Positions 8,801-59,189 of a stretch of DNA of 64,000 nt are shown one piece after another. Below the pieces are notes generated by a model. That model saw only the letters and a list, made by a program, of their open reading frames with translations. It was not told the DNA's origin and made no database searches. The stretch is from Halichondria panicea (lineage: Eukaryota > Porifera > Demospongiae > Suberitida > Halichondriidae). Positions within the stretch are counted from its first letter, which is position 1, and every line of letters begins with the position of its first letter. Location of the stretch: NCBI RefSeq assembly GCF_963675165.1, contig NC_087379.1:2236201-2300200 (forward strand), in the 5' to 3' direction. The position numbers and the translations under genes are program-made.

Positions 8801-9465
8801 GGTGACATGATACTAAAAAAACCAGAGGAATGATATAATGCAGTGCGTGTAGCATGCCTATGACTAGCACAGCAACTCAAGAGCAATAAAACTAAACTAA
8901 CAACGTACATGCATGAGACATGCACTGTGGACTGGGATCACAGCAAAGAAGCCTGGAGTCTTAGACTAAGAGAAGTATGGCTCCACTAATTTCAGAAAAC
9001 GTTACTAAAAGCCTATAGAAACTCTTACTTGCACTTCATTTATCACTGAGCAGCTGTAACAGTCTACACACACTCACAATAAAAAGCCACTCTAACCAAC
9101 CTTAGGATGGTAGGGTCCGAGTACGAGCCAGCCGAGCAGTAGGAATGAGATGTAAAGGATTCCAACACACACTCCAAAACGCAGCACACTAGGCATCGCC
9201 ACTTTGAGTGTGATGAGCAATATGTTGTATGTTTCCATATATCTGAGGAACCTCAAGATTCCACACCACTGGCCAAACACAGCCAGTCCCAGGATGATAC
9301 TTGTGATGTCCACTAAATCTGTCGAGTCGGGGTTCTGTGTGTGTGTGTGCGTGTGTGAGCTGAAAAGTTGTAATTAGAGACACTAGTTTTATCTGCTAGA
9401 CTACGAGTACGAGTTCAACCGCTTCCCTTACAGAGGGGCTGTAAAACCACAATTAAGGAAAGTAT

Positions 9466-22613: not shown

Positions 22614-23648
22614 ATGTCTGAAGCTCAGTCTGAAGGATTATTGCAGGTATAGCTAGCCTAAACTAGCTAGATTCCTGGCTTTGTCAAGCATACACATTTT
22701 TGTTACTTGTAGGAATCTTCATTTTCCGAAGCTGAAAAGGAGGCACAGCAATTAATGAAGGATGCTCTTCCCCCGTACATAGTAAAGTGCTTTACAACCG
22801 CAGGATTTGATACAATGCAAGTCATTTTGAAAATGGATGTAAGTGATGAGCCGGGAAATTCGATTGAACAAATAGAACAATTTATCTCTGATGAACACCC
22901 TGACCTTTTAACTTCGAAAAGCAAAAAACCACCTGGGCACAGGATTAGAATACAGCAGTTTGTTAGTGAGCTATGTGCTAAGAAACAATCACTTGGAAAG
23001 ATAGGTCACAGTGGACATAAAAATAAAGCATCAAAGAGAACAAGATTAAGTGATACATCAGATACATCAGATAATACTTCAGATTTTAAGGACAGTGATC
23101 AAGTTAGTATTATAGGTATCATTCGACATTGCCATTGGGCAACATTGGCGATTGAAGACAACGATATTAATCTGTACGATTCCGCATACTCTTCTATTAG
23201 CAAAGAGACTATGAAAACGATCGCCAACTTGGCTCAGTGCAAGAATGACTCGTTTACTGTCAACTTAATGAACATTAAAAATCAAACAGGAATCGCGGAT
23301 TGTGCTCTGTACGCAATGGCAGTGGCCACCTGCTTGATTCTTAAGGATGACCCAACTACTGTTGTGTTTCACCAAGATGAGCTAAGAACACACGTTTGTC
23401 AGTGCCTAGAAAAAGGCACGATAACACTGTTCCCTATGAAGAAGAAGAGGAGGCATGTTAGCCGAGTGTGTAGAACAGAGACTTTATCAGTGTACTGTTA
23501 CTGTCGCATGCCAGATCATGGCCAACTAATGGTACATTGCAGCCAATGTGATGACTGGTTTCATCGATGCTTACAAAAGATACCTGATGATGATATAGAT
23601 TTTATTTGTAACATTTGTAGTAGCTATAATTATATTAATTATCAGTAG
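22614..23648 (+). CDS. Ulp1-like cysteine protease with C-terminal PHD finger
   Basis: There are two exons: 22614-22646 (MSEAQSEGLLQ) and 22713-23648, joined in frame at GT-AG borders, giving 322 aa. The C48/Ulp1-like core shows the expected order: His in HCHWATLAI, Asp in INLYDSAYS, Gln in NIKNQTG and the nucleophile Cys in GIADCALYAMA. This fold normally cleaves ubiquitin-like modifiers. The last 60 residues hold a PHD-type zinc finger (CYCRMPDHGQLMVHCSQC, then CDDWFHRC and FICNIC). The catalytic domain is shorter than in SENP enzymes, and the N-terminal 90 residues are unrecognised. It lies inside the TIR element, so it is most likely a transposon-borne gene. Its activity is untested. Confidence 0.75.
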
Positions 23649-35911: not shown

Positions 35912-35977
35912 ATGTTGTATAATCTACAAGCTATTGTGACTTTGCTGTTGTTCGTAACAAGCTCGATACAAGCTCAA
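35912..35977 (+). other. Signal peptide of the giant cadherin
   Basis: The first 21-22 codons read MLYNLQAIVTLLLFVTSSIQ, then AQ. There is a hydrophobic core and small residues at the likely cleavage point. An upstream in-frame ATG-less extension (from 35837) lacks these properties. Confidence 0.75.
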
Positions 35978-38900
35978 CAAGTACAATTTGATCAAGCATC
36001 GTATTTTGTCGGTTTCGATGAAGAACAATCAAACGGAACAACAGTTACAGAAATCAGAGCTTCGTATTTGAACTCTTTTGGACTGCCCCGAACTGATGGC
36101 ACGTTCTCATTACCCACAACTGGAGATGCACAATTATTCACCATAGAAACCACGTCTGATACGACCATATCCACGGGGATAATCAGATCGAGAGCTGTGT
36201 TTGATCGCGATGCCGTCAATGCACAAACACAATTCAGCTTCATGGCTACCTACACCACACCTGACGACACCAGTGCCTCCGCATCCATCAACGTGTTCAT
36301 ACAAGATGTGAATGATAACAGACCAACGTTTTCGAGCAAAATTAATCTCGTCTTACTCTTAGAAGACACGGTAGCTGGTACCACGTTCGTTACCATCACT
36401 GCTACAGATCCAGACCAGGTGCAGAGCGAAACAAACGTTATTGATATTTCACCTGACGTTCAAGATGAGGTGGAAGTCTTTACGATCACAAACGGACGAA
36501 TTTTATACAATATAACGTCTGGAAATAGCCTAGGGCATTTTGTGATTGGCAGACAAAGTGGAAGTTTGTCTGTGAGTGAAATGGTGGTGCTCGATATTGA
36601 CGCTGTCGATTTTTATAACCTCACTGTTATGGCAACGGATGGCGGCGGGTTAAGCGATGTAACCATTGTGACTATCGAAGTAGTGGATGCCAACGACAAT
36701 GCTCCGCAGATATTGGGCCCTTTAGGGGTTAACCTGACTATTCCAGAAGACACTCAACCTGGCTATGTAATTGTTGACCACATAAATGCAACGGACTTGG
36801 ACCGTGGGGTCAACGCAGAGATACGCTTCTCAATAATATCCGGAGATGTGACTGATAGCTTTTCTATAGATGCCATATCTGGTCATATTGAAGTCTCCGC
36901 CCCCTTGGACCGAGAGGTGGGCAGCACCGTCCAGCTGACTGTACAGGCTCGGGATCTGGGAATACCACAGCCCATGCAAAGCACTGTACAGGTACGTCAT
37001 ACACTTAGTACACATGTAAGAGGGGGGGGGGGTTAATTTGTTAGCACACATGTAAGAGGGGGGGGTTAATTTGTTAGCACACATGTAAGAGGAGGGGGGG
37101 GTTAATTTGTTAGTACACACGTAAGAGGGGGGGGGGGTTAATTTGTTAGCACACATGTAAGAGGAGGGGGGGGGGGTTAATTTGTTCTCTACATGTCCAA
37201 TACCATCTGAATTTCAAGTGACTTAAAATAATTGTATACCTAGCGTTAAATGAGAGCTTTAAAGTGCCATAACTTTAGTTCATTTGTCCAATAACTGAAA
37301 GCTTATGTATTAAATCAAAAGTCTGTTTTTGGTAAAATGCCATGGGGGGCTGTATATACATATATATGTATGTCCATGGTATTTTCCCAAAAATAGGAAA
37401 TTATGGCCCATTCCAAATTTGAGAATTGAGCATACCATCTGAAAGAGCATCAAAATTAATCGGATCGATCATCATGCAGAACTCTAGATACAGAGCGGCT
37501 ATACATACTGTATGACTTGCATATTTTACGTTAACTGTAATACTGATCATAATTATTTCGTCGTGTTTTCTCCAGGTTGTAGTCAAGTTGCTGGACATCA
37601 ACGACTATACGCCCCAGTTCACTCAGACCTCCTACACAGTCTCTGTCAGCGAGAACCTGAGACCCCCTGCATTGGTTACCACACTCGAAGCTATCGACCT
37701 GGACGAGGGTCCAAATGGAACTGTATCATACACCATATTGACAGGGGGTGATGGAAGATTCACGATTGATAACTCGACAGGGGATATTCATGCGGTTGTT
37801 TCTCTAGATCATGAAGAAGTGAATTTTTACGAACTTTTGGTGAGAGCAGTTGATGCTCCTCTGAATGATTCTTACCAACTCTCAGCCGAGGTGAACGTCA
37901 CTATCCTCGTGGGGGACATGAACGATAATGCTCCAGTGTTCCTTAGCCCCGCCTACAACACTAGTATACTGGATGATCAAAAACGTCGCACAGAAATTCT
38001 GCGAGTAATTGCTACAGACGCTGATGGTGGTTCAAACGGACAGATAAGATATCTCATTAGTACTCCCGATCCGACCGATTCTGATGCTTTCCTAGTCAAC
38101 GAAACAAATGGTGTTATTTACCGAGAACGAATGATCATATTTGAAAACCAATCTGTGTATAGCTTCACAGTCCAAGCTCGAGACGGCGGATCCTTTCCTT
38201 TAGCCGATGCAACCACTGTTACGATATACGTACACAATGTTAACAAGAATCCACCTGTGTTCAACCAATCAGAATACAACGTTACAGTCATGGAAACCAC
38301 AAATGTTGGTACAGTAGTATTGAATGTCAGTGCATATGATCCAGATGTTGGCTTAATTGGAGAAATACATTATAGAATTGTGAGTGATTTCGATACAGCT
38401 GGTTCCTTTGTAGTTGACCGATTCTCCGGTGAAATTTCTGTCAGCTCAAGGTTAAATTTTGATGTAAAAGCATACGTTTTCTTTGTTGTTGAAGCTTACG
38501 ACGGTGGATTTCCAGATCCGTTCACAGCTAGGGTCAACGTTACTGTGTACCTCACTGAGGAGAATGATGAGGCCCCTTCAATTACATTTCCCGACGGCTT
38601 TTCCCCAACAGTTCCTGAAAATAACAGCCCCGGTTTTGAGGTGGTGTTTTTGTCACAGTACACCTTTGACCCTGACATTGGTGTCGGGGGCGAATTTACT
38701 TTTCGTTTAGTTGAAATTTTCGATGAATTTTCTCAGAATGATTCATTTTCTTTCAACGAGACCACTGGACTGATTACAAGTTTAAGAACATTTGATCGTG
38801 AGCTACAACCTGGTGGTATTATTATTGCTATAGAAACTATTGATTTCGGTATACCACAGCAATCGAAAATCACCAACATCACGATAGTGATTGGAGATCG

Positions 38901-41900
38901 AAACGATAACCCACCCTATTTTGAATATAATGCAACGGCTGAAGTGTACGAGTTTATGCCCCCAGGCACACAAGTACCGCTCAACTACACTGCCCTCGAT
39001 GATGACATCGGAATAAACGCCAGGTTGGAATATGGAATATTCGATGGAGTTGGAGCTGAAAGATTTACAATTGATTCTGTTTCTGGTATCATTTCCACAA
39101 CTGAAGTGTTGAACAAAACTGAGCAGCTCTTCTATAACCTAACCATCATCGCTATGGACCAGGGCGTCCCACAAATGTTTGGTTTTGGTTTTGTTGTTTT
39201 TGAAGTTATTGACGCAAACGATCAAATTCCGATATTTTCTGAGTCTGTGTACAATGTTAGTCTGCCTGAGAATTTGCCAAATGGTATCTTAGTAACGCAA
39301 GTCAATGCTTCTGATTCTGATGTCGGTACTAATGCCAACTTGGAATATTTCATTTCGGAAAATTCAACCAGTTTTAAACTGTTTGCAATAAACACTACAT
39401 CTGGTGAAATATTTTCAAATGTCGAATTTGATCGCGAGAATGTGAGTGTAATTTATGTCGAGGTAGTTGCTATTGACAACGGCCTTGTTCCCCTTACCGG
39501 AAGTGCAACTGTCCGAGTGTACATACAAGACGTTAATGACAACACCCCATTGTTTAACAGGACTCTCTATTCAGCAAATGTAACTGAAAATGCTCCCAAT
39601 GAAACTGTCATAGCAACTGTACTTGCTCTTGATGCTGATGCAGAGAGCCCGAACAACCAAATCACTTATAGTCTATTCGGAGAAAGAAGTGATATCTTTA
39701 TCGTCGATTCTTCCACTGGTAATGTCCTCGTAGCAGGAGAGGTTGATTGGGAGCTAGGAGAACAATTTACCGTTACTGTCATAGCAACGGACGGGGGATC
39801 TCCGTCACGAACAGACACGGCCGAGTTAACGATACGTATTGAGGATATTAACGATGTAGCCCCGTTATTTGTTCCAGGCTCGCTAAATCTATCGATATTT
39901 GAGAATACTCTGCCTGGAAATACGTCAGTGGTGGGTTATGTGCAAGCAGTGGATGCGGATAGTCCCGGTAATAACTCACTTGTCACTTATTCCATACTAA
40001 TGGATTTCACTAGCGGAAGATTTGAACTTGATTCAGAAACTGGTCTCGTTACATTTGTTCAACACAGTCTGGACAGAGAGGTCCGTGATCTTTACGACAT
40101 TTTAATTCGTGCGAGTGACCATGGCAACCCACGATTGCACACAGATGCTACACTCTTTATTAGTGTGACAGACTCTAATGAATTTAGTCCCGTATTCGAC
40201 AGTGCTGTGTACAGTGGGCAGGTTGCAGAGAGAGCTGTTGTGGGCACATCCATTCTCACAGTACTAGCCACTGATATTGATATCGATCTAAACGGTGAAC
40301 TGCGCTATTCAATTCTTGACTCCACATTCGAGAGCCTGTTTCAAGTTAATGCAACGACTGGTGTTATAACTACGGCGAGTGAAGTATTTGATTTCGAGTC
40401 TGAGACTGACTACAGGTTTCAAGTGGGTGTAACTGATTTAGGTTCCCCTGTGCAGTTAAATGATACTACTCTTGTCCTGATCACAATACTGGACTCCAAT
40501 GACAACAGCCCCATCTTTCAGCAGGATATATACTCGGCTACTATCCGTGAGAATCTTGCCTCAGGCACTACCGTCTTGCAAGTACTTGCTACGGACGTCG
40601 ACTCTACTACTAATGAGGAAATTGAATACACACTCCCGCCAAGAGTCAGTGATTATTTCGGCGTAGACCCCCTCACGGGGGTGCTGTACACCAGACAATT
40701 TATCGATCGTGAGGTTACCCCTGAGTTCAGCTTCTTAGTTACTGCCAATAATTCGAAAGCAGCTGACCCACTGTACTCAACTGTGAATATTTTCATCAAT
40801 GTGTCTGATTTGAACGACATGCATCCCACGTTCGAGCCAGTAATTAACATCTATGTGTTGGAGAACACTACCATCGGCAGTACTGTCTTCATTCTGAATC
40901 CTGAAGATGGAGACCAAGGAAGAAATGGAACAATAACTTTCACTGTTACGCAGGAAAACGCGTTCTTTGGTTTTGATGATACGTCAGGTGACATTTCTCT
41001 TATCAGAGAGCTCGATTTTGAGATACAAGAATTCTACATTCTAACGGTAATGGCTACTGATTCAGGGTCGCCAAGTTTGAGTAACTATACCAACGTGTTG
41101 ATACATGTCCTTGACGTTAATGACAATTTTCCTCAGTTCTTCGCTAATATCTCCACAACAATAAGTTTTGCAGCTGACGTCGGCTCATTTGTGGCAAATT
41201 GTGAAGCGTATGATATTGATAGTTCAACTAATGCAGAACTTGTTTTTACCATCCTAGCTGGCAACGAATTGGGACTTTTTGAACTAGCTTCTGACAGTGA
41301 GGGTATTCTAATTACTGCTGCCTCTCTGTCTAGTTTGACTGAGTCTGATACTGTTGTGCTGGTGTTGGGTGTCTCGAATCCTGGACTAAATGGATACAAT
41401 GCCAGTGTCAGTATTTTCATCGATGAAGGGCAAGTAACTTCACCTCGATTTGCAAGCCAAAATTTCACAGCCTCTCTGCCAGAGAATACCATAGTGGGTG
41501 ATACCGTGTTCGACTTTACAGGGCTATCAAATGTCGATATCTTTTCACTCAGCCCTGAGTTTGCTAGTCGTTTCAGTATTGACACTGCAAGCGGTGTTAT
41601 CACTCTTAGATCTCCATTAGATTACGAATCACAGCGTCTCTACCAGCTGACTGTTGAAGGAACAATAAGCGGACAGACTACCACGGCCTATACAGTACTG
41701 ACTATTGAAGTAACTGATGTAAATGAACACCCTCCACAGTTTATAGCAAGTTCTTTTTTCATTGCTCTTTCTGAAACTGCACCCATTCTAGAGCCGTTTT
41801 TTGTCGCTATAGCAACTGACGAGGACGGAGCGCTCCCTGCCACTGTCATTACGTATTCTATTACAACCCTTGACTCAACTGTGCAATCGCATTTTGGCAT

Positions 41901-44900
41901 CAACCCACAAACTGGTGGTTTGTTTCTCCGGACTAACCTCGATTATGAATTTGGTATACGTGAGTTTAATTTCACAATATCTGCTGCAAATGATTTTTTG
42001 TCAAGTTTTAGTGAAGCTAATGTAAGTATTGCCGTGCTTAATGGAAACACTTTCTCTCCCGTTTTCACCCAAACTCGCTTCGTTTTGACATTTGATGAGA
42101 ACATCGATGCTGGCCTAAACTTTCTCAACGTTAGTGCGACTGATCAAGACGAAGGTTCCCATGGCGATATCACATATGGATTGCATGGTAACCATGACTA
42201 CTTTGACTTCAGAATCGACACATTCACTGGCCAAATATTCATCAACAATCCGCTGGATTATGAGAGACACTCATTCTACACTCTTGAAGTGATTGCCGGG
42301 GATGGAGGAAATCCAGGCAGAACTGGAACCGCAATAGTGCAAGTCTCAATCGGAGACTTAAACGACAACAGTCCAGTGTGGGAATCAGCTCAATACGCTG
42401 TAATTGTATCTGAGAATGTGACTGTGGGTACGGAACTGATTAACGTTATGGCAATGGACGCAGATCAAGTTCAACGAGACGAGAATGGGAACGTGGACGT
42501 TGATAATGGGTTGGTGGCGTACAGTATTGTTGATGGCGATCCGATTGGTAATTTCCACATCACCGTGGATACAGGAGTAGTATCGGTTGCGACTCTACTC
42601 AACCGTGAACAGATACAAGTGTACAACCTAACGCTGAGAGCTACAGACGGTGGAGGGCGATTGGCCGAAGCCTTTCTTCACATAACTCTAACAGATGTGA
42701 ATGATCAGGTACCAGCTTTCACTGAAAGCCCCTACATTGTAGGTTTGCCGGAAAATTCCTCGTATAGTGTGTTTGTACTTACAGTGGTTGCTATAGATAC
42801 AGACCTCAGGGAGAGCTCTGAACTAACGTACCATTTTAACGGCTCCTCTAGTGATGTGTTTGTGGATGGCACTGGCACGTTTTATCTCAACGATACAACT
42901 GGTGATATTTTCCTAATCTCAACCGTTGATCGAGAGGAGCAAGATACATATACACTCATTGTTGAAGCCATAGACATGGGGACCACGCCCCTAACAGGGG
43001 TTGTCGAGGTCATTATTCAAATTATTGACATAAACGAGTTTGCCCCTGCTTTTACATCAGCTAATTACAATGGCAGTGTGTTCGAGAACGAACCGACGGG
43101 TACAAGTGTGTTACAAGTGTTCACTACCGACCAGGACTTTGGCGAAAACAGCACTGTGCTATATTCTATTGTTAGCGGAAATTATAGTGAGTTGTTTAAT
43201 ATCGTACCCGACTCTGGCGTGATTGAAGTGGCTGGTGACATTGATTACGAGTTCGTACAGGAGGTCAGCCTTATTGTTATGGCAACTGACACTGGGCCGA
43301 TTGAAACCAGACTATCCAGTCAAGTGAATGTAACGATTTATATCAAAGATCGCAATGATAATGCACCCCAGCTGCAAGAGAGGTATACCGTATTTATCTC
43401 TGAAGATTCCTTGCTGAGGGACCTAGTACTGGTTGTCATGGCTATTGACGAAGACTCAGGAGTCAACGCTTTATTGAACTATTCCATAGACCCCTTGGGT
43501 GATACTGAAGTCGAGACTACCTTTGTAATTGATTCATCAAACGGTTCGATTGATTTAAGCGGTGCTTTAGATAGAGAAACCATTTCTAGCTATTTCTTTC
43601 TGGTGAATGTTAGTGATGGAGGTGTCCCTACACTGCAAGATAGTTCTCCTGTGACTGTACATGTGATAGACGTCAATGACAACGTACCTCAGTTTACAGC
43701 TGCCTTTTTTGAGGGTTCTCTCCCCGAGAATTTACAAAACAACACCCCAATAGTGACTGTGGAAGCGACAGATATTGACAGTGGAGCAAACGCTGATATA
43801 CGGTTTTCAATTGTCAGCCAAGTTTGGAACCGGTCCGAGTGTATTGAAGTTTGCGGCAGCCAATTATTTTGCAATTCTGTTCTCCCTAGCAATATCTCAT
43901 CTGACATACCATTCTCCATTGATTCCCGAACTGGATTGGTCTTGTCCAATAGATCTCTCGACAGAGAAGAGCGGGCCAACTATGTGCTCATTGTTCAGGC
44001 CAGGGACTCCCCTCTCAACCAAACACAACTGAGCAGCACCACTTGTGTGACTATTGACGTACTTGACCGGAATGATGAGGTGCCTATGTTCTCTCTTGAA
44101 ACATACCAAGTGGGGATATCAGAATCTTCTCCAATGGGAGAGAGTGTCATACAAGTAGCCGTTGAAGATCGAGATGTCGGGAATAATTCTAAGATAACTT
44201 TTGAGTTGCGTACAGAGACTGGAAGTTTCACCATTGATCCCACTACAGGCGTTATCAGAACTCTGATTGGTGGCTTTGATCGAGAGATGAGAGATGAGTA
44301 TCGTTTAATGGTCGTAGCTCGCGATAGAGGCACACCTTCTCTCTCTAGTTCCGCTATTGTTGTGGTTACTATCTTGGACGAAAATGATTCACCACCGGAA
44401 TTTTCACAGACTGTGTACTCGGCAACTGTATTCGAGAATTTACCCTCAGGCAGTTTTGTGTTTCAAGCAGCGGCCTTCGATGCAGATATTGGCAATAATG
44501 CTGAACTGTCTTACTCTATAGTATCAATATCTCCCTCTGTGGGTCATTTTGTGATTGATTCGATCAGTGGTAATTTAACTACCACACAACCACTCGACCG
44601 TGAAAATATTGAGAGTTATAGCATTGCGGTGATGGCTAGAGACAATGGAACAGTGTCACTTAGCGATACTACCATTATAAATATAATGGTGCTTGACGAA
44701 AATGATCTTCCTCCTTTTTTTATCAACCTCCCATTCACTGCTACCATCAACGAAAATATGGTATCACTCTTACAACCATTGTTGATTGTCACGGCAACTG
44801 ATAATGATCTGGGTACTAACGCTAATATCTACTTTACTCTGGAATCTGTAACACCCCCCACTAATGCATTTGAAGTGAACAGAACGAGTGGTGAAATCTT

Positions 44901-47900
44901 TGTTGCCTCTGAACTCGATGCTGAGTATGCACTTAACTATACCATCACTGTTAATGCTAGCAATGGACAAGCACTGCCGTACCAGAGTTCAAAGGTCGCC
45001 ATAGACATACAAGTGACTGATTTGAATGACGAAGCACCATACTTTGAGCAAAGTGACTATGTAACTCCTCTATTGGAAGCCACACCTATCGGTGGTGACG
45101 CCATAGCGCTGAGAGCCTTTGACGATGATGCAACTATCGCTAATTCAGAGCTGAGCTTCGATATTTCCGGTGGTCAAAACAGATCGCTGTTTGGCGTTAA
45201 TGTAACTACTGGTCTAGTATATGTTGCCGGAATCCTGGACAGGGAAACTGAAGCTATTCATGTCCTAGAGATAACAGTATCAGATAATGGATCTCCTAAA
45301 CTGAATGCAACTGCAACCCTGACGATTATCTTACAAGACTTTAATGACAATCCACCTATCTTTGACCAAACCTCCTATTCATTTAGAATCAACGAAAACG
45401 TACCTTTGTCGACGCTAATAGGAAGTGTGAGAGCTACTGATTTGGATATTCAGAATATTTCTTATTCACTCACGAACACTAGCTTCTTTGTAATCAACTC
45501 CACGTCTGGTGAAATATTCTCTTCATTTGTACTGGATAGGGAGGAGCAGGAAGTGTATAGCTTTGTTGCTGTAGCAACTGATGAGGGTGGTGTGCTCCAA
45601 CGCAGTACTGAGGTTATAGTTAACGTTACCCTCTTAGATTTGAATGATGTCGCTCCATTGTTTCAAGAATCTCCATACACAATATCATTGCTCGAAAACA
45701 CGACAGTTGGAACAGTTTTATTAACAGTAGAGGCTGTTGATGCAGATCTGAACGAGAATAGCGTGCTCCAATACACGCTGTTGCCTGGAAACGATTCTTC
45801 GTTCTTTTCCATAAATGCAACTAATGGTGAAGTGTTGCTAGACGCTGGACTCGATAGAGAACGACAAGACAAGTTTGTGATCTACATAACGGCCACTGAT
45901 CGAGGTGTACCGTCGCTAATGGGTATGGCAACAGTTCAAATAAGTATCCTTGACAACAACGATAATGTGCCTGTGCTGAACTCAACCAAATACATAATGA
46001 GCCTACCTGAAGATGCAGCTGTTGGTACGTTGATACTTGTTATCGGAGCAACAGACAGAGACATTGATGAAAATGCAAACATCACTTTCACGATCTCTGA
46101 TAACTTCAATGGTATATTCAGTATTGGAGAGCAAAGTGGAATACTACTATTAATGGGTGCCCTCGACTACGAGCTGGTGAGGAGTTATAGTTTCTTTGTG
46201 ATAGCTACCGATGGCGGACAAGAGCCTCTTTCAAACACGTCTCAAGTGTATGTTGAAGTTCTCGATTTGAACGATAATCCACCGTTATTTGATGCCGAAT
46301 TGTATCGGATTTCCATTCCTGAAAATTCCATTCTCAGTACTTCAGTGTTTCAGATTCCAGCAACTGATGCAGACGCAACCACTAACTCAGAGCTTCGATA
46401 CACCATTCTCTCCGGGAATCTTGGTGGCGTTTTTGCCGTCAATGAAATATTTGGACTGATAACAACTTCTGATTATTTGGATCGCGAGGTTACACCATCT
46501 TATACACTTGGTGTGCGTGTCGTTGATTTGGGAACGCCACAGTTTACGGCAACAGCGGTTGTCGAGGTTACAGTACAAGATGTGAATGATAACCCACCCC
46601 GGTTTGAGTATAGAACATACTCAATTTCAATTCCAGAATCAATCGAAATTGGCTCTGAAATTCTCTCCGTAAGTGCATCAGATTTGGACATTGATCTCAA
46701 CGCAAACCTGACCTATTTAATAGTTGAAGGAAGCACAAACAATGCATTTGATCTCGACCTATTCTCTGGTATCATCACTCCTACACAGGCCCTCGATTTT
46801 GAGGCCATTCCATCTTACACCCTCACGCTAATGGTCTCAGATAATGGCCTCCCCTCCCCCCTCACGGACACTGCTATCGTCCTCATCTCCCTCAGTGATA
46901 TCAATGAGGCTCCACCCACTTTTACTAGCCCCTCGTACTCTGTGGACGTTGCACAGAATGCTGTGGTAGGCACTCCTATTGGATATTTCATTGCCAATGA
47001 CAACGATTCAAACTCTTTGATTGAGTACAGATTGAGTGGCGGTGATGGTTACTTTAATGTGGATGAGCTGGAAGGCACTGTATATGTCAGTAATCCCTTG
47101 GATAATAATGGTAGTGGTATACTGACACTGGAAGCTATCAACGGAGATTATGTGACTAATGTGACTATTCATGTGACTGTGGTGCCATTGTCTGATGCTA
47201 TCACTGTACCACTCTTCAGTCAACCAGCTTTTTTGTTTGAGGTTGCTGAATCAGTTGATATCGGATCGATTGTTGGATTTGTTAGCGATAATAGCTTTGA
47301 AATTGTTGGTGGCTCTGAACTATTTAATGTAAATGAGAATGGAAGCATTATTCTGATTGGTCGCCTGGACTATGAAGCGACACCCATATATGTATTCAAC
47401 ATCGAAACAAGCGTTGCACCATCGATATTTGCAATAGTCACTGTCAGGGTACTGGATGAGAATGACAATGCCCCAGTGTTTGAAAGTGCAGTGTACACCA
47501 TTGTAGTATCTGAGCTTGTTGAGCTAGAGACCACCTTGCTAGTGCTACGAGCTTTTGATAGGGATTCTAATGGAGTGAACAGCCAACTAGAAATATCACT
47601 ACTGGAAATTGGAAATGAAAGAGAGAACTTTGCTATTGATCCGATAACTGATGATTTGGTAGTGGTCAATCTGTTAGATTATGAGGAGCAGAGGTTGCAC
47701 AATCTCACCGTTATAGCAACCAATCACCTAGCAACCCCTACGCTATCTAGTACAGCTCAAATTATTGTACAGGTCACGGACAGCAATGACAACGACCCAA
47801 TTTTTAGTGAGAACTTCTATCGAGTGCAGATATTGGCGTCAACTCCTGTTGGAACTGAAATCTTGATACTGGAAGCTGAAGATGCTGACTCAGGATCCAA

Positions 47901-50900
47901 TGCCGAGCTTGTATTCTCTATCACTCACCTAAGCACTCCGCTGTCGTTTGTCGTAAACACCACTTCAGGCACTCTAGTGACGAACACGACATTCAACCTC
48001 ACTCAGGGCGTTACATCATCATATGTCATCTCGGGTTTAGTCTCGGATAGGGGAAATCCCCAACCACGGAGCGACACTACAACAATATTCATTGATGTGA
48101 CTGCTGATAACATGTTTCCCCCCCTCTTCTCACAGCCTACTGGCTATTACGTTGAGATACCGGAAACCGTTTCCAGTGGTTACAGAGTTGCAGATATCTC
48201 AGCTGTTGATCCTGATGACCCCTCGGCAATGATACAGTTCTGCATTGAGTCTGGAGATACTAGAGAAATGTTTGCAATTGACCCCTCGACAGGCCTGATT
48301 GAGTTGTCTACCTCTCTTGATTTTCTTGAGCAATCTTTTTACTCGCTGACAGTATCAGCTACTGATTTTGGATCACCCCCCAGAAAAAGTTGTGCGGGGG
48401 TTAATATTAGCGTCATTGACATCAATAATCACAACCCCCAGTTTACGGAGTCGTCTTACACAGTTGTTGTGATTGAAAATGTAACGATCGGTTCATTTCT
48501 GATACAGACAGAAGCTACTGACCCGGATACAGTCAATATCACTTATCAGATTACGGTCAACGTGCAAAACAATGGTATCCCGTTATTCAGGATTAATTCT
48601 ACAACTGGTGAGGTATTTACAGCTGCCATCATTGACAGGGAATTTGCTGATGTCATTGAGATTCTCGTCTCTGCCATTGACTCTGGCTACGCTGTTCAGC
48701 GCTCACAAAGCATACCTGTTAGAATTATCGTTCAAGATCTTAACGACAATCCACCTGTTTTTCGCCAGTCCAATTACTCGTTCCCAGTGGTGAGACTCCT
48801 CGGACAAGACCAAACTGTTGGCATGACGATAGCGACAGATGCTGATATTGTAGGCGAAGAAATAATGTATTCTATTGACAGTGACACTAGTGGCGGGCTG
48901 TTTAGTATTGACAGGAACACTAGTCGGATTACAACCGCAGCAGTTACCCCGGAGACGGCCGCACTTCCTGGATACCAGCTTGTGGTGACGGCTTTTGATG
49001 GCATATACAGTACGAATGTGACTGTACTATTGAAAATTGTCGATGACGGTCAGTTTTGTAACAGCGATGGATTCTGTACTGTTGTAAGAGAAGTGAACTG
49101 CACATTTGACATCTTCCCCCACATCGAATGCAATCCCTTCTGCTTGGGACAATATGTAAGTCTGCATTGCAATGCGTTATTGTGAAGCTCGCATAGTAAA
49201 CATGTAAATTGAAAAAGCATCTGTATTTTACTATTTTCAGCATGAACTGCTGTACTTGTGCAATACAGCATGCATGTATTTTACTTGTTTTTTTTTTACA
49301 GGCGCTCTCTCCACAACGTAGAGTCTGTCTCTCTCACTATTGTCTAGATACTGGCCTTGTCCCCTGTGTTGCCATGGAGACCTGCTTACCTACGAACCGA
49401 GCATGTGCAGGAGTTTGCCCTGAAGATATGTCCGTTTGTCCTACCACCGATATATGTCATGTGATATCACTCACCGAGTCATGTGATCAAACCAACGAAA
49501 CGTGCCTAACTGGACAGGCTCTGATTCAAAGAAGTGATAATTCGAGGTACTGTGAGATCGCAAGCAACTTGACTCAAAACTGTACCAGCGAAGGCGTTGT
49601 ATTTTGTGAAGCACTAAATGAATGCCATGTACTAACGGAACCCGATCTTTGTCAAGCGTGTCCCGGTGACCTGGTACTGTGCGCTGATACGAGCGAATGT
49701 GTGAACGACTCTGTCAGGTGTTGTGGTACAGATGGCTACTATTGTGATATACTCGATCGATGCCTGGAGGCTAGTGCAAGGTGTGAGCTTCCGAACATTG
49801 CACCTGTAGCCAATTATCCTCTCATTTACCTCGAAACTGTTGAAGATTTTTCACTGGATAGGACCAACGATGGTTTTGTGGTGTCATTGTTGCTTGGAAA
49901 CTTCACACAACCAGCTGTAGATGCTCAAGGAGAACTGCTTAGTGTGGCCATAGTGCAGACCTCTAGTGTACAAGACTCATACGGAGAATGGCAGTATGCG
50001 CTTTGTGGAGATTTACCATCTGATATTACTGGAGTATGCTCCAATATGTCGACCAGCTGGACACCTATCGATGCTGGAGTGTTGTCGGAGAGTAATGCTC
50101 TTGTGTTACCAAGCAACGCTATAGTGAGGTTTGTGAGGAGAGCTATAGAATTGGACGGTGCTATTTGGTTGAGAGTTAAACTATGGGATGGAAATGTTGA
50201 CGAATTTATCAGTCCCACATCTGATCTTGTACGCTTGCACACTCCTAGTTACGAGAGTACACTGCCTTACACTCCAACCAGTGCCTACAGTGAAAACACT
50301 ACACTCCTTGTAATTGTTATTCTACCACTTATAACAAGACCTGTGTTCAACACACAAGCATCTTTGCAGCTGTCAAGCATCCAAGAAGACGTTGTATTTG
50401 CTGATAACCTTGGCAACCAACTCTTCGATATCGTATTATCAGTAGACATTCCTAACTTTAAACAACTAGCTGAAGACCGAATAGAAGGATTTGAAGACAT
50501 CGTCTCACAAGATTTTTCTGAGGAGTTGTTACCTAGCAGCGTAAGAGAAGCGTACTACGAACAGGTGACTCTCGTTAACCCTACCAGGAGAGAAAGAATA
50601 GAATCTTTGCAGCGTGGACAAAATCCTGGAGTTGCGATTTCTCTGCCTTCTGAAGCCGCTGGTGTATGGCAGGTGTCGAGTACAGGAGATGCAAAAACAT
50701 TTGTTAATTTGAGATCTGTACTGACTAACGCTGACAGTGGAGATATATTGTTGCTAGGGACAATGGCTAGGCTCAGATTTTTGCCAGCTGTAGAGTTTTG
50801 TGGTCCTGAACATATTTTGGCTCGCCCATGGGACGGCTATTGGAATCAATCCTTCCCTCTAGAGAATGGTTTCCTCGTAGTAGCCGCACCTGATGTGAAT

Positions 50901-53900
50901 TCATCTACACCTGCTCTGTCAACTACGAACCTTAACGAGTGGGAGAGGGTGGAAGTCAATGTGATTTGTATGCAAGACAAACCGGTTTTACTGGATGATC
51001 GGGTTCTACTCGACCCAATCCCCTATCACTTAGCGTACCGTTACGAGCGTATCTTCACCTTGGTTGTTGACAGAGAAGTATCCGATATGAGAACTGAGAG
51101 GAATAGATTATCTGATTTCCTGCTACTCACTCTTGAAGTGGCAGTGGATATAAAGAAAATATCACCACTTGTGGAAAACAGGTGAGGAAATGTATTCCCT
51201 ACATGTATCTTATTAACTTAGGCTGTTGATGTTTAGTATATTAGGGGAGAGTTGCTTTCTATTCTGTTTTATCAGTGCATATTCCCCCTCAGGGCGTCTG
51301 TGAGTTTCTCTGTGGAGGGAGATGTACAACCATTTAATGAAGTTACTGCATTGGTTCAGAATGTGAACGCTACTCTCTCTCTATTGGGCTTCCCTGTCTT
51401 AGACATCCTGCAAGGTGAGCAATGAAGTTGTTTGCAGTTGTTGGTTATTGATCTTTACCACTTGTGTTAGAGCATGAGCATAATTCCGTTAGTGATTTGA
51501 GAGCAATAATTCGTTTTTGAGAAACTGATCTTTACCCTTTAGGTTGGAGCATGCTAATCGCTTGTTAAGTTAATGATCTTTACCCATCAATTCCTCAACC
51601 TCTTTCTGTTACATAATTATTTTTCTTTTACAGATGTGTCTTATGGCCCTGGGGCTGGTTGCCATGGAGATCAACCACAGCATTATCACGGTGTTCATGT
51701 TAACACATTTTTCTCTCGTTTCACGTATGATGGAGACAGCAATTTTGTGGGCGTGGCTGTAGTCGCTATGGACACAGATACGCAAGGGGTCTGGCAATAC
51801 CATCGTGGTAACTGGAACAGCAGCGAAAATAATTACGACCCTCTCTCAAATGTTTGGATAGACTTTCCATCTCCTAATCAACTTGAGCTCTCAGACACTC
51901 GAGCACTTCTTCTCCGTAGCAACGATCGATTAAGATACATTTCCTACCCCGGTGTATTCTGGGATAACATGACTGCCCCTTCAATTAGTGTTAGAATATG
52001 GGATGGATCTGTAGAAGGCATAGCCCCCAGCGGTGAAATATTGACGTATAACATTAATACTAACCCCACTGTCGACACTATACAGTCATTGCTGTACCCC
52101 CAGGGAAGATTCAGTGATAATGTTCTTGTTGTCGAGGCTGCTAGATTTGGTTGTGACGGACAAATTAACTCTGGGCTTGTACATGACGCTTGCTGTGTGT
52201 GTGGTGGAGGTGGTGACTCGTGTGACGGTTGTGATGGTGTGACAGGAAGCAACGCAGTCTATGATGCATGTGATGAGTGCGGGACAACAACAGTATCAAC
52301 GGAATCTACCTGTCTAGGATGCGATTACATTCCATTCTCTGAAACTGTATCTGGAGAGTGCACTGAGTGTGTTAGCGCTATCTCTATACCTACAGATACC
52401 CCAAGAGATGGTTTTCTATTCCTGGATCCTGTATTTGTGGACTGCAATGGAGATTGCTATGGCGATGCCGTAATGGACAGCTGTGATGTCTGCTCAGGAG
52501 GGAACACTCAACACCAACCAAACTCTGACATGTAAGTAACTATTGACATTAAGCTTTTGCTAGCTAATTGAGTGCCCATAATCGAAGGCTCTGTGTGCTT
52601 GCAATTGATTGCTATAATTATACCGGTTAGCACCAAACTGAATCTAGCTAAAGCAACCATTCTCCAGCTTGCATCCACCACCTTCCATTATAACTTGAAA
52701 CTGAATGCTTTGCTTTTCCCTTGTACAGTGACTGTGCTGGAGTGTGTTTCGGTGAGGCCGTCATTGACGACTGTGGTGACTGCACTGGCCCGGGAAGTAC
52801 CTTCCAATTCAACCGCAATATGGACTGCACAGGTGTGTGCAATGGACCGTTTATCACTGACAGCTGTGGAGTGTGCCAACTAACCAATGAGAACGGTGTG
52901 ATCGTCGAGAACAGAGACTGCACTGGTGTATGCTATGGTACGGCTACAATGGATTCCTGCGACCTGTGTGTGGGCGGAGGCACTAACCTTACAGCTGGTT
53001 ACTCGATGGACGAATGTGGAGTGTGTGGAGGTGACGACAGCTCGTGTGTGGGGTGTGATGGGGGTGTGGCTAGTGGACAAACGATTGACTCTTGTGGAGA
53101 ATGTGGTGGTAATAACTGCGGCTGTTTCCAACTGGACACCGTTACTCCTAACAGGGGACCTCGGTCTGGCGGTACAGAAGTTATTGTTCGAGGAGCAGGC
53201 TTATTTCTAAACGATACCGAACTATTGCAGTTTGAATTTGACCGAAACTCATCGAACTGTGGAGCTCCGTACACGTTTCATAATGTTGTTGGTCGTTTTG
53301 TACGAATAACTTGTCACTTTCAGTCACCTGACTTAGAGCAACAGCAACCGGTATTTGCAATTCCCATTGACCAGTCGACAGTGCGCTGCATTACAGGACC
53401 GACCATCCAGAACCAAATCTACATCCGGGAATTTTCAGTCCAGGTCCAAATTGAAAATGGTCCTTTCTCAAATCCGATTCCGTTTTTCTACGACGACTAT
53501 AGCGATGTTACCATAGACTCTATAGCACCCCCTCATATTGAGACGAACATTGAGGGTGTGGTGTCCTTTATCGGCTCAAACTTTCTCAACACCACATTTC
53601 AAGAATGCTTTTTTTACAACTTTGAACAGTGCCTTAACAGCCAAAGCTCACAAAACCCGCTGTCTATACCAGCCACCTTCATCAGTGAGTCAGAGATATC
53701 CTGCCAGCTGCCCCCAGCCGATATCCCCTGTCAGGTGACACTGAGGCTCTCATTGGACGGACAGGAGTCTGGGATCATTGATACATCTGCTACGATTTTT
53801 ACCTATCGATACAGCGCTCCAATAGTGAACTCCGTGCATTTTTCCACTGATTTATCCACCCTACTTATTGAGTTTGATAGACAGGTTGAACTAGCACCCA

Positions 53901-56900
53901 TTTTTAGTTTGAGATGCTCGGAGATTCTGACACTTGATACTCTCTCTTTGGTTGGTGGTCGAAATGCTGATTGTAACTGGGCTGATAGTAGCCAACGGCA
54001 ACTTGTTATCTCTCTTCCACGCTCCGCTAGTATAACAGTCAATTCTCCTACTTCATTTGCCGAGAATATTTTACTAAGTAGAGGTCAACTATATTCCTTT
54101 GCAGTTGAGAGTACACCATCTCTTGTTGACCAAGTCCGAAATATAGTTCGCCCTCAAGCCGTATTAAACGGGCCACTTTCCATTCCAGCTTGTGGCCCCG
54201 TCACATTCTCAGGAATCAATTCCCAGTTTCCGGGATATGGTGGTCTAGAATACTACTGGGCTATTCGCGTTCAAGACAGCACACTAACCAACTATTCTGA
54301 TATCGTCACCTCAATTGAATCCTTCGGCATTCGCTCGCCTGCGATCACACTTGATTCTGATCTTTTCCTACCTCAAACAGAATACTATCTGCAGCTGTAT
54401 GTGATTAATTCAATTGGACTTGAAAGTGAAACTGAAAGTGTTCTGCTTCTCAAAGATAACGAGCCAAGCTCGTTTGTGTACATCGATGCAAACAAGATAC
54501 TGAGAGCTGGTGAAGATTTGATTGTGCAAAGCATTGTGACCACACCTCAATGTTCTAATGAACCTCAGGCATTTGATTATGTGTGGACACTGATAAAAAT
54601 TATCGATAAAAGACGTGGTATCACCTCTGAAGTCGACCTCTCGTCTTTGAAAACCTCCTCTCCCATGATTATCATACCAGAAACTTACCTTGAGCAAAAT
54701 ACTAACTACACATTATCAGTACGAGTTATCATCGGTGATAGCTCCGTGTCTGTCCGAGAAGACGTGGGTGTGTCTATTTTACGGCAATTCCTACAAGCTG
54801 GAGTCGAAAGTGGTGATCGAATGGTGTCACAAAGCCGAGATATTGTGCTGAATGGTCGAAACTCTATTCAAGATCCTTCTGTTAGTTTCTCGTGGAGTTG
54901 TCAGGTGGTTGGGTCTTTGGATGCTTGCTATAATCGTTCCCAAACTGGACTCATTCCCATTCCAATATCCCTTCCAAGAACAGAGTTTATTTCATTTCCA
55001 GCGTCTCATTTGGAGGCTAATAGGATTTACACATTCACTCTGGTACTAGAACGAGAAGAAGACAGTTCTCAAGCAAGTGTGACCATCGAAGTTGTCGCTA
55101 ATCGCCCCCCCATTGTCGAGATCAGCCTGCCAAGATCTGTTGTGTCATCTCAGACAATTGTCATGGAGGGATTCGTGTTCTCGTCTGTTCCCGTGGAGAC
55201 TGTCTCCTGGGAGTCACTGGACATTATTGGTGAGTGGATCAGTAATCATACACTAGGAGAGTGTTTATTTACAACCAGCGTTTTCTGATCTTAATATCGT
55301 ACATGCCAGCTTGTTTTGCTTTTGCAATTTGCGCTTTGTAGTGTACATGTACTCAAACAACATGTACTTCTAACAAATATTTTCCAAGCATCAAAATAAT
55401 ATGAATATTTTTAGGCTGAAAATGTTCTGTTGCAGGTATATGTACCACTGCAAACCACAGCAATACAGAAAACTGCGCTTTAGACGTATATATTGAATGT
55501 GTGAGACTACATAGTCTACTTGCCCAGCAATTTTATTCACTTTTTGCTCTGTTTCCTCTTTAGGACAAGGAATGATTGACGTAACAGACCAAGCTATCGT
55601 TCAAAGTCAAGTCACCTACGAAACCCCACCTACTACTGAGACCACCTCCCTCTCCGATTATTCATCCATCCCTCTACCTACTTCCATTGCTCTAAATGTA
55701 ACCAGTCGAGCGAATCTCATTCTTTCTCCAAACACCCTCACCCCTGATCTAAGCTATACGTTCAGGCTGACAGCTCTGACCAATGAGGGAGCAGTGTACA
55801 GTCAGGTGACCATCGTACCATCATCTCCCCCGAAACTCACACAGCTACAAGCCACCCCCACTAGCGGTGTTGCCTTGGAGACTGAATTTACGTTGGAAGC
55901 TATAAACAGTGTTGGTAGCCCAGACGGTAGTCCTTTCCAATTTGCTTTCGGAATTATTGAAGACGATAATATCGATACGAGTGTGACTTCTGTACCTGAT
56001 CACGTGATAAGTTGGATATCTGGCATTCAAGTTTCGAGTAAGCTATCAACTTTTCTTCCTGCAAGCAACAATAAATTGTTGCTACTGGTTCGGGTGTTCG
56101 ATAGAAATGGTGGAAGCTCTGATGCTCTGACAGAAGTAACCGTCAACCCTAACTCTGCTCTGAGCGATGAAGCTAGCTTCACAAATATTATCACAAATCT
56201 TAATGACGTTTTAGTATCAACAAAAGATTGGAACAGAGTCCTATCCAATTTAGTACCAGTGACTCTCGAAATGAACTCACGAAGTGTTGTATATGCAAAC
56301 ACACGAGCGGCAATACTGGATCTTATTGTGAGTGTATTTAATGACTATCTTCCTCCCTCTCAAAATAACTACCAACTTGTGAACACAGTGCTGTCTCATC
56401 TCACAGCTAATGGAGGCATTATCGACACTACCCAACAAAACAGGATCGCCCCTATCATCAAAACTATACTGCAATGGTACGATAGTGAAATTCAATTTGA
56501 GCAGACCACTGAATCGATTCTAACTCAAAATGATGGAGAGCCTTTGTACCTTCAAAACAGCTATACAAAAGTGGCATCGAACTTTCTAACAGATTCTATG
56601 GCGGATGATCTTCTAAAACCTCTGGCTAATATTTTGAGTGCATCATTGAATCCGCAACTATCAAGTGATTATGTGCTAAGTGTGGACCTAGTGAGCAGGC
56701 TTCTGTGTAAGGCTAAGAATGCAGGGCAGCAAGCTAGTGTGATCGATAATGGACTGTCACAACTGTATGTTGATATAGCACAACCGAATGGAGCGTTCGA
56801 TCTCTCTGGTGGCATAGTGGACTTCCAAAATGCCATCAATGATTTATTCGAAGCACAAACCTGTTCCACTACCAACAGACCTTGTGTCGAAACCTGTGTG

Positions 56901-58958
56901 TCTGGAGCAAAGTTTGGATCTGATTTTCTCAACCCTGGCTCAAATGTATTGCCTTTAGACGGTAATTCTAGCAACTCATTGCTATCTCAAATAGAAGGTT
57001 CCAATCCTCAAAGTGTTAGTATCTTCTCTGACATTGTTTCCGCATCAATTTCAATTCCGTCTCAGAACTCATATCTCCAAGTTTCAGATTTGCCATCTCC
57101 TATACGGATTTTGATTCCAATGCGTGCAAGTGTCCCAAGTGACTATCGACCTCTGTGCCTGTACAGGAATGTGGGTGGCGGAAGTGGATTCGCGACTAAC
57201 GAGTGGCGTTTGGATAGTATACAACCCCTCACGATCGTATCCTATTCTGGTCAAGATCACTTTGTATGCGAATTCGATCATTTGACAGAGTTTGTTATTG
57301 GACTTCTCCCACCCCCTGTGATAACCACACAACCTCCCATAACCACGCCACCCCCCACCACTCCGGAACCAACCACACCTACAACCACACCTCCACCTCC
57401 TACAACCCCAGCAACTACCATCCCTCCTCCAACTGTGCCGTCTCCAGCTGGTGCAATTGCTGCGGTGATTATTGTTCTACTAGTAATAGCAGCAGTTATT
57501 GTGACTCTTTTAATCGTGTTTTTTGTGTGGAGAAAGAAACATTCCAAGAAGGTTAAAATCAGTCCAGCTACGGACGAAACAGATGGTGATGAAAAGGTTA
57601 AACTAACTAAAGCTGGTCCTCTCACCCCAGAAGAATCTAAAGTCCCGATGCAAATCATTCTCTGTGCTGACAAGGGGGAAAGAAAGCTGATCGGAAAAAT
57701 GAACGTCCTGCCGTCGATACGCCTTCGTGAACTGAGATACCAGCTGGCTGATAATTTTGAAATGTTCAAGCAAAAACCGTTTTATTTCTTGACCAGACAG
57801 TTGTGTGATATTGAGCCTGCCGCAGAACAACAACAGTTTGTGAGTCTGGTATTCGGCGACAAGCCCATCTTTGTGAGAGAGGTCTCCACCGAGAATGAGT
57901 TAACAAAGAGGCACTTTTGTGTGTGTGGAAATGCAGCTCAGTTTGAATGCTCCAATTGCAGCTCTCAAGGCTATTGCAGTCCTGAGTGCCAACTAGAGAA
58001 TTGGGCGGACCAGCACCAGAGGCAATGTGGTCGACTAAGCGAGAAGAAAAGAAGATCAGATGTGTTAACTGGAATTGGAGGACCATCTGAAATTCAAAGA
58101 CCGTTGAGACGCATCACCCTAGCAACCTCTCCGTCAACTGGAGGTATGGCTACATCTCCAGTTTCACCTACTGACTGGAAAGGATTTATGAGTCTTGGAA
58201 AGTCGTTCAATTCACCAGCAAGCCCTCAGGCACCAGAAAGTTTGGATACACCCAAACCGTCCAACAGTGAAACCGCAAAACCTTTTTTGAGTCGACAAAG
58301 CACTCCTAGAGCTCCACCCACTCTTGGTCCACTAAAGAAAGTATCTATATCCTCTCGTAACCTCCCTCCTCTCTCACGCTCGTCCAGTCTCCAAGGATAC
58401 TCTCAGATTGCCTCCAGACCTTCGTATCAAACATCCACATCTGTTACAAGACCCAACTTCTACAGTACTTCTGCAGGATCTGGAGGTCCCCCACCATCCC
58501 TACGAACCCCCGTTAGGGCTCAACCGGATCTATTTACGAGGGCAAACCCCCAGCAGGCTTCACTCCGTCCACCACCTCCTGCACGTAGGATCTCCATCAC
58601 CTCAGTCGGCTCAGAAGAACTGGGGTACTCTATGAGCATGTCACGTGACGTACGACATGAGCCATTGCTGGAATCAGACGAGGACGATTATGAGAGCTCA
58701 AGCGATGGAAGCAATATTTCTCCATTACCACAAATTCTTAATCCTCCGACTAGCAGCCACACACCCCAAATACAGTCAAGTATACCTCCTCTTGAGACAC
58801 AACCCTCATCCCATGAAACTAATGCACATGTGGGAGATACGCAGCCCTTTCAAACAACCCCTGCAAGCACCCCCACAGAATCTAAAGCTCTGGAAAAATT
58901 GTCGGAAGTTTTAGCTCACGATACAAGTATGTCCGAAGCAACTAAAGAAAGCAACTAA
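35912..58958 (+). CDS. Giant cadherin receptor with GPS-like site and MYND finger
   Basis: Seven exons: 35912-36991, 37576-49155, 49302-51181, 51293-51414, 51634-52531, 52729-55229 and 55564-58958. Phases agree and give about 7,151 aa. The start is chosen at MLYNLQ because a signal peptide (LLLFVTSSIQA) follows. Residues about 23-4190 form about 39 cadherin repeats, each ending in a DxNDNxP-like Ca2+ motif. Then come Cys-rich segments, three copies of a GxWQ...LRF.P...WDG module, CGVCGGDDSSC repeats, two IPT/TIG domains, a REJ-like region and a GPS-like site with HLT at 6593-6595. A Pro/Thr linker, one membrane helix (6651-6676) and a 475-residue tail with a MYND finger (6806-6842) complete it. 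No EGF, LamG or catenin-binding motif was seen, so it is neither classical nor Fat-type. An adhesion and signalling role is inferred. Confidence 0.85.
37010..37180. repeat. ~35-bp minisatellite with G-runs
   Basis: The unit TTAATTTGTTAGCACACATG, then TAAGAG and 7-11 G, is repeated about five times. It starts about 20 bp past the first cadherin donor (36991). The G-run length varies between units. Confidence 0.9.
37576..49155 (+). other. Single 11.58-kb exon of about 36 cadherin repeats
   Basis: The frame is open without interruption for 3,860 codons between a CTCCAG acceptor and a TAT-GTAAGT donor. I counted linkers such as DMNDNAP, DRNDNPP, DVNDNTP, DINDVAP, DSNDNSP and DLNDNPP. Repeats are about 100-110 residues with LDRE and A.D.D..N motifs. 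Several linkers are degenerate (DEGQVTSP, LNGNTFSP, VPLSDAITVP), so not all repeat junctions would bind three Ca2+ ions. The first repeat in the exon is split by the intron. Confidence 0.9.
49302..52531 (+). other. Cys-rich and WQ/WDG-module region of the giant cadherin
   Basis: After a Cys-rich stretch (about 49330-49790), a module recurs three times: SYGEWQYALC...LRVKLWDGNVDE (about 49800-50230), AAGVWQVSS...RLRFLP...RPWDG (about 50640-50840) and TQGVWQYHRG...RLRYIS...VRIWDGSVEG (about 51650-52020). The last is followed by CCVCGGGGDSCDGCDG-type repeats. The same W-G-WQ and RF.P/WDG pattern is known to me from bacterial and eukaryotic adhesin-like proteins, but I cannot name the family safely. 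Confidence 0.55.
53115..53812 (+). other. Two IPT/TIG-like domains
   Basis: TVTPNRGPRSGGTEVIVRGA is the typical opening of an IPT/TIG immunoglobulin-like domain (as in plexins and PKHD1). A second, weaker copy opens at VTIDSIAPPHIETNIEGVVS, then FIGSNF. Confidence 0.7.
53813..56170 (+). other. REJ-like region (polycystin-1 type)
   Basis: ARF-like openings (VNSVHFSTDLSTLLIEFDR), a conserved Cys pair (LRCSEIL, NADCNW), ACGPVTFSGINSQFPGYGGL with YYWAI and the later GVALETEFTLEAINSVGSPD with PFQFAFGI resemble REJ modules of polycystin-1 family proteins. The call rests on pattern only. Confidence 0.55.
57129..57299 (+). other. GPS-like motif with HLT site
   Basis: CLYRNVGG...SGFATNEWR, then HFVCEFDHLTEFVIGL, matches the layout of a GPS (C..W...C.C.HLT.F). 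The autoproteolytic H-L-T tripeptide is at 57279-57287. One of the usual cysteines is Phe (CEF for CxC). It lies about 55 residues before the membrane helix, across a Pro/Thr linker. Self-cleavage is inferred. Confidence 0.6.
57453..57530 (+). other. Single transmembrane helix of the giant cadherin
   Basis: AIAAVIIVLLVIAAVIVTLL, then IVFFVW, is followed by WRKKHSKKVK. This is a clear stop-transfer anchor and the only one after the ectodomain, unlike the 7 or 11 helices of other GPS proteins. Confidence 0.9.
57645..58028 (+). other. Cytoplasmic beta-grasp-like domain and MYND zinc finger
   Basis: About 80 residues from MQIILCADKGERKLIGKMNV through LRELRYQLADNF to KPIFVREVS look like a small ubiquitin-fold or related domain (weak). 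The MYND finger (57918-58028) is clear: CVCGN, FECSNC, GYCSPECQLENW, HQRQC, with all eight zinc ligands. MYND fingers bind Pro-rich partners such as PxLxP. Confidence 0.8.
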
Positions 58959-58984: not shown

Positions 58985-59189
58985 CATTCAGTGTGTTTTA
59001 ATTAACCATTAATTGTTAGATACAGCTAGTTTTCAATGTTTTAATTAATTATTATTATTCATGACTTTAAATTATTGCTAACGTGTCTAAAGTAATTAAT
59101 ATTAGGGGAAGGTCCAGGGAAATCCCCAGGGGGCGTTCCATTGCGTATATACCTCTAGCTGGTATAGGATACCCCTAGTAAAGCGTATA

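Follow-up and report, generated by a model that had tools for sequence, protein, structure and literature searches.

Classical cadherins and Dachsous carry a catenin-binding cytoplasmic region (PF01049), Fat and Fat-like cadherins place EGF and LamG domains ahead of their membrane segment, and CELSR/Flamingo receptors combine seven membrane helices with a GAIN domain. Polycystin-1 has a PLAT domain and many membrane helices. BS69/ZMYND11, ETO and DEAF-1, which carry MYND fingers, are nuclear and have no membrane helix; MYND fingers occur in cytosolic proteins too. For lefftyrin, coherin and hedgling, cohesin and BIG-type domains have been described that follow the TMEM132 order (PMC6030884). 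The closest described protein is that of Amphimedon queenslandica, XP_003386184.1, which was drawn with cadherins, VSP, IPT, REJ and MYND and named dachsous (PMC3620549, BMC Evol Biol 2013, Fig. 3A). Its MYND is mentioned once in the main text of that paper, in the figure legend. According to the same source, residues 4900-6300 of the Amphimedon protein are also present in two Monosiga proteins and the VSP-IPT-REJ part in an amphioxus protein.

In this study, we analysed a stretch of 64,000 nucleotides of the Halichondria panicea genome (the window), which contains what looks, from its sequence, like a single gene for a giant single-pass adhesion receptor with a MYND-finger tail. A sequence-only reading had taken the domain combination to be unknown. 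That view has to be given up: PMC3620549 lists VSP, IPT, REJ and MYND on an Amphimedon cadherin, and because its 2013 figure already shows the combination, this is not new to print. The distinction from Fat, Dachsous, classical cadherins and Flamingo made in the same reading holds by the features tested here.

Gene structure and extracellular modules

Conceptual splicing of seven exons (35912-58958, plus strand) gives a single frame of 7,151 aa. The joins keep phase, and all six introns, 111-584 nt in length, run GT..AG, so that the seven phase-consistent exons and the length of the sequence-only reading were reproduced. Exon 1 (35912..36991, +) encodes a signal peptide, placed by eye at aa 1-23, and the first three cadherin stretches. 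Exon 2 (37576..49155, +; 11.6 kb) encodes 36 more, after which a Cys-rich region begins. Its 3,860 open codons have a chance of about 10^-100 from base composition, and stops interrupt the two remaining forward frames 227 and 397 times. Exon 3 (49302..51181, +) continues the Cys-rich region and contains the first two of three WQ...WDG modules that are spread across aa 4450-5010 (module 1, aa 4450-4515; module 2, aa 4676-4730). Exon 4 (51293..51414, +) measures 122 nt (41 aa). The third module (aa 4941-5010) lies in exon 5 (51634..52531, +), where Cys-rich CxGxC repeats begin. These repeats extend into exon 6 (52729..55229, +), which further encodes TIG and the first part of REJ. The remainder of REJ, the GAIN domain, the stalk, the membrane helix, the entire cytoplasmic tail and the stop are all encoded by exon 7 (55564..58958, +).

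Pfam was scanned exon by exon (exons 1, 2, 3, 5, 6 and 7, each on its own) and recovered cadherin, TIG, REJ and MYND. The 39 cadherin stretches (PF00028; 3 from exon 1, 36 from exon 2) agree with the roughly 39 repeats counted by the sequence-only reading and, as tandem EC repeats, place the protein in the cadherin superfamily. The IPT/TIG and REJ-like modules of that reading both exceed the Pfam cut-offs. TIG reaches 26.1 bits over two stretches (cut-off 20.9; best stretch 53510-53773, +, exon 6), and REJ, split across the intron, reaches 70.7 bits in exon 6 (best stretch 54548-55129, +) and 63.0 bits in exon 7 (cut-off 25). The WQ/WDG and Cys-rich modules it had named were located as well, although exon 3 has no Pfam family above its cut-off and NCBIfam gave no match in exons 3, 5 and the tail, WQ/WDG modules included.

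A search of predicted proteins with the tail found one relative among 34 candidates, P0001 (6,207 aa), and a search seeded with P0001 yielded four of 892 scored proteins: P0002 (7,093 aa), P0003 (6,368 aa), P0001 itself and P0004, a Phytophthora GAIN/REJ protein that was excluded from every count. P0001-P0003 hold cadherin repeats through MYND, in the same module order, within one predicted protein, the pairing for which a proteome search had been proposed. P0001 and P0003 begin within the cadherin array, and P0002 starts from a signal-like N-terminus. P0002 is annotated 'protocadherin Fat 4'; the other two are without a name. The C-termini of P0001 (TESVV) and P0002 (TESAV) are PDZ-ligand-like, a feature absent in the query protein and P0003. 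Among mid-length proteins the tail was present in 26 of 179 candidates. These relatives are 90% clusters, several of which may come from one genus. One of them, P0005 (1,511 aa), holds the GAIN-to-MYND stretch in two copies, probably an assembly or prediction fault, and was counted once. In a set of 22 of the 30 sequences (without P0001-P0003, P0005, P0009, P0012, P0021 and P0025), MYND passes E 0.01 in all 22 and REJ in 21.

None of the 26 shorter relatives shows a cadherin domain in the precomputed Pfam lists. This would be expected if a neighbouring cadherin gene and a REJ-MYND receptor gene had been wrongly joined into one model, and it appears to set the MYND part apart as a gene of its own. 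The points at which homology begins speak against such an artefact. In 11 of the 26 homology begins at aa 5188, whose codon intron 5 interrupts, and in 11 further relatives it begins with the very first residues of the relative, which correspond to aa 5192-5302; only P0014 and P0017 (further into exon 6) and P0005 and P0026 (in exon 7) begin later. Clustering at or near intron 5 is the pattern expected of single-exon ORF calls, and the 11 onsets at aa 5188 give independent support for the intron 5 splice site. Moreover, the introns are short, phase is kept across the joins, and P0001-P0003 extend without a break from cadherins into MYND. Two merged genes are thus largely refuted, and we regard such an error as hardly credible. 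The claim of one receptor made from sequence is supported by the phase-keeping joins together with these three cadherin-to-MYND relatives.

A predicted GAIN domain beside a single membrane helix

The module beside the membrane that had been called GPS-like finds no match to Pfam GPS, either in exon 7 (E<=10) or in 22 family members (E<=0.01), and none of the 68 matches of a genome-wide Pfam GPS search lies within the window. Structure prediction instead gives a GAIN domain at 56166..57314 (+; aa 6222-6604), so that the earlier naming survives as a predicted fold. In VIA-align, the predicted domain matches both CELSR1 and adhesion GPCRs. In Foldseek the exon-7 model has 17 matches below 0.001, headed by the GAIN domain of Gpr126 (2.7e-06), while the remaining ones are mostly complement and Ig-type chains. 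The GAIN assignment therefore leans on VIA-align. With REJ identified by Pfam and GAIN by predicted fold, the description of the juxtamembrane modules as polycystin-like is borne out.

The predicted autocleavage site is the GPS triad H-L-T (57279..57287, +; aa 6593-6595), which the exon-7 structure model places between its final two strands. HL[ST] is present in 25/30 sequences, as HLT in the query protein. It is missing by pattern in P0001 (HNS), P0008 (HLG), P0030 (HLA), and P0003 and P0026 (no match), and cleavage therefore cannot be universal in the family. A Pro/Thr-rich stalk of about 51 aa (57288..57440, +) leads from the cleavage site to the membrane. The transmembrane helix (57441..57533, +; aa 6647-6677) was assigned by hydropathy and is also helical in the model. 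Over the whole protein, hydropathy passes the threshold at aa 6643-6679 only, in agreement with the single membrane helix proposed before.

The cytoplasmic tail and how it may signal

The tail contains a predicted ubiquitin-like (Ubl, beta-grasp) domain at 57645..57884 (+; aa 6715-6794) followed by the MYND zinc finger at 57918..58028 (+; aa 6806-6842). The finger, C-x-C-x7-C-x2-C-x5-C-x3-C-x8-H-x3-C, scores 26.6-27.1 bits (Pfam cut-off 22.7), and by sequence the top PDB match is the MYND finger of DEAF-1 (5.4e-05). Its eight zinc ligands occur in MYND order in 30/30 sequences, as do the equivalents of Y540, Q546 and W550 of BS69, which according to PMC4742278 contact proline motifs. The zinc ligands and the Y/Q/W peptide-binding triad are thus shared with BS69/ZMYND11, ETO and DEAF-1, from which the query MYND differs in its C-x8-H spacing and in its first cysteine pair, C-x-C rather than the usual C-x2-C. 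The cytoplasmic MYND finger of the sequence-only reading is confirmed by a score above the cut-off and by intact ligands and triad, and its sequence predicts that the site binds proline motifs. The MYND structure itself is of low confidence (mostly pLDDT <50) in both the tail and the exon-7 models. The ubiquitin-like domain is assigned less surely than GAIN: its blocks reach pLDDT 55-84 in the small tail model and 36-79 in the larger exon-7 model with weak structural matches, Foldseek gave no match for the small tail model at E <= 0.001, and a PDB sequence search with the Ubl part found nothing significant (TRF2 0.073, SUMO-2 0.74).

Within the terminal exon of the 22 sequences, conservation is higher in Ubl (0.72) and MYND (0.75) than in REJ/GAIN (0.32-0.43) or the helix (0.38). 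That the Ubl-MYND pair is the best kept of the terminal-exon parts measured suggests selection on the tail and not on adhesion alone. Among the four long sequences, the query protein and P0001-P0003, identity to the query protein is highest in MYND (55-60%), but Ubl (46-50%) is only on a par with the Cys-rich repeats (47%) and stalk (48-55%). The unusually strong conservation of the intracellular part across relatives may mean that the receptor signals through it. An acidic motif, EPLLESDE (58659..58682, +), is conserved in the tail, EPLxESDE being found in 23/30 tails and in none of 200 shuffles.

We propose, with a probability of about one half, a two-piece adhesion receptor that signals by recruiting proline-motif partners through its Ubl-MYND tail. 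The GAIN domain would cut itself at HL|T, as its predicted fold suggests, and on the cell surface a long fibre of cadherins would stay attached, non-covalently, to a short piece of stalk, helix and tail. Adhesion or pull on the fibre would cluster or separate the two pieces. Inside the cell, Ubl-MYND would dock short proline motifs of partners and hold them at the contact site, so that the signal would consist in recruitment through the tail, with neither catenin binding nor a seven-helix domain. The proposal builds on the GAIN fold, HL[ST] in 25/30, the conserved Ubl-MYND with intact ligands and triad, and the lack of a catenin profile match at the locus. Against it count the five sequences without HL[ST], the low-confidence MYND and Ubl models, the C-x-C start of the finger, the level of Ubl identity in the long sequences, and PxLxP, which is rarer in the tails (6/30) than in shuffles (mean 11.7); PPL is found in 12/30 (shuffled mean 7.1). 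The outside-to-transcription or scaffold route imagined by the sequence-only reading would fit this anatomy, but binding of proline motifs need not be nuclear.

The tail might also act as a released messenger. GAIN dissociation followed by a gamma-secretase-type cut would send Ubl-MYND to the nucleus and to corepressor-type partners. The short stub with its stalk of about 51 aa has a suitable geometry, the MYND fingers of BS69, ETO and DEAF-1 function in transcription according to PMC4742278, and a basic segment follows the finger (58032..58073, +; aa 6844-6857; 0.61 mean pairwise identity). A basic run at this place (K[KR].[KR] or four basic residues) is present in 28/30 tails against a shuffled mean of 6.1. 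Such a run beside a zinc finger is a weak sign of import, though, that at most allows nuclear release, and MYND fingers are found in cytosolic proteins as well, with ZMYND10, ZMYND12 and SMYD chains among the PDB matches. We consider a released tail unlikely. Improbable, too, is a homotypic scaffold in which the Ubl-MYND tail dimerises or binds motifs in tails of its own family and so clusters the cadherin with no signalling partners. A MYND-containing ZMYND8 construct described in PMC13196413 dimerises, and LPP[LI] is found in 13/30 tails (shuffled mean 0.9), yet the motif is missing in 17/30 tails though MYND is intact in 30/30.

Relation to known receptors and to the rest of the genome

PF01049 has no match in exon 7 (E<=10) or, in the genome search, at the locus, while the same profile matches C9:961606. 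For EGF and LamG, scanning exons 1, 2, 3, 5, 6 and 7 singly gave no match at E<=1, and PLAT had none in exon 7 at E<=10 (Pfam). With one helix in addition, we find in this protein neither the classical/Dachsous tail nor the Fat modules nor the helices that mark CELSR and polycystin-1. It has a predicted GAIN domain in common with CELSR/Flamingo, from which it differs by its one helix, its lack of an EGF/LamG match and its MYND tail. With polycystin-1 and REJ receptors it shares REJ and GAIN beside the membrane, but it differs from polycystin-1 in having no PLAT match, one helix, a cadherin fibre and a MYND tail. The cohesin and BIG-type domains of lefftyrin, coherin and hedgling found no Pfam match in the scanned exons, a comparison made without those cadherins' own profiles.

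XP_003386184.1 is probably an orthologue, a likely twin, as judged by its published description. According to the legend in PMC3620549 it has EC, IPT, REJ and MYND in one protein, as Pfam finds in the query. Its VSP-IPT-REJ part (aa 5114-6215) is close to the Cys-rich/TIG/REJ part here (about aa 5090-6250), with the Cys-rich repeats at the position that corresponds to the Amphimedon VSP, where Pfam gave no VSP family at E<=1. Section 6 of PMC3620549 reports no GAIN or Ubl for it. The name dachsous was chosen by the authors after BLAST with the Trichoplax protein, and this, with the large cadherin ectodomain, could suggest a sponge orthologue of Dachsous or Fat working in planar polarity or Hippo signalling. 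The authors' own tree, however, did not convincingly cluster the Amphimedon protein with either, their legend gives VSP, IPT, REJ and MYND solely in Amphimedon 'dachsous', and our locus has no catenin-type profile and no EGF or LamG match. That the receptor is an orthologue of either with such a role is very doubtful. Tentatively, and at less than even odds, it may represent a distinct, undescribed class: a force-gated, GAIN-cleaved two-piece cadherin with no seven-helix domain or catenin site, whose Ubl-MYND, membrane-held or releasable, docks proline motifs.

Searching the genome with the tail returned the locus itself plus three weak matches across the MYND part. There are 14 other MYND places, none near another listed cadherin match (at least 151 matches, a lower bound from 150 of 570 candidates scored), and the other long cadherin frames, on C16, C7, C11, C9 and C4, are likewise not near a listed MYND match. 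Of three MYND places inspected as a possible second MYND cadherin, those on C2 and at C9:6358267 read, from their translations, as a tudor-type ORF and as PDCD2-like, and one ORF on C17 (L014:415-4740) carries DUF4470 and four MYND fingers. In viral contigs searched for related loci, 80 stretches fit the pattern and none was confirmed. Directly 3' of the gene (59106-60220, +), two ORFs match a Neuralized domain, each covering one half of it, one just under (22.8 bits) and one over (26.8 bits) the Pfam cut-off of 23.3. On the minus strand, two ORFs at 4766-9373 are matches to the polycystin cation channel family (above cut-off for 9095-9373, below it for 4766-5296) and read as a TRPML/mucolipin-like channel. 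Between them lies an inverted repeat (7275-7771 / 7940-8436) whose 497-nt arms are 95% complementary and separated by 168 nt; it may be a mobile or duplicated piece of recent origin. An ORF at 22713-23645 (+), with a Ulp1-type peptidase (C48) above and PHD below cut-off, is possibly of transposon origin, and 10865-12559 is low-complexity, minisatellite-like and open in several frames on both strands.

The best-ranked papers of the open-licence literature yielded no description of the family as such, of its GAIN and ubiquitin-like domains or of the conservation of its tail. The one published mention found there appears to file the likely twin under a family name, dachsous, whose tail profile is not found here. 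The receptor bears on how early-branching animals convert contact between cells into signals outside the catenin complex, its GAIN domain offering a switch, and its MYND site a class of ligands, that can be put to the test.
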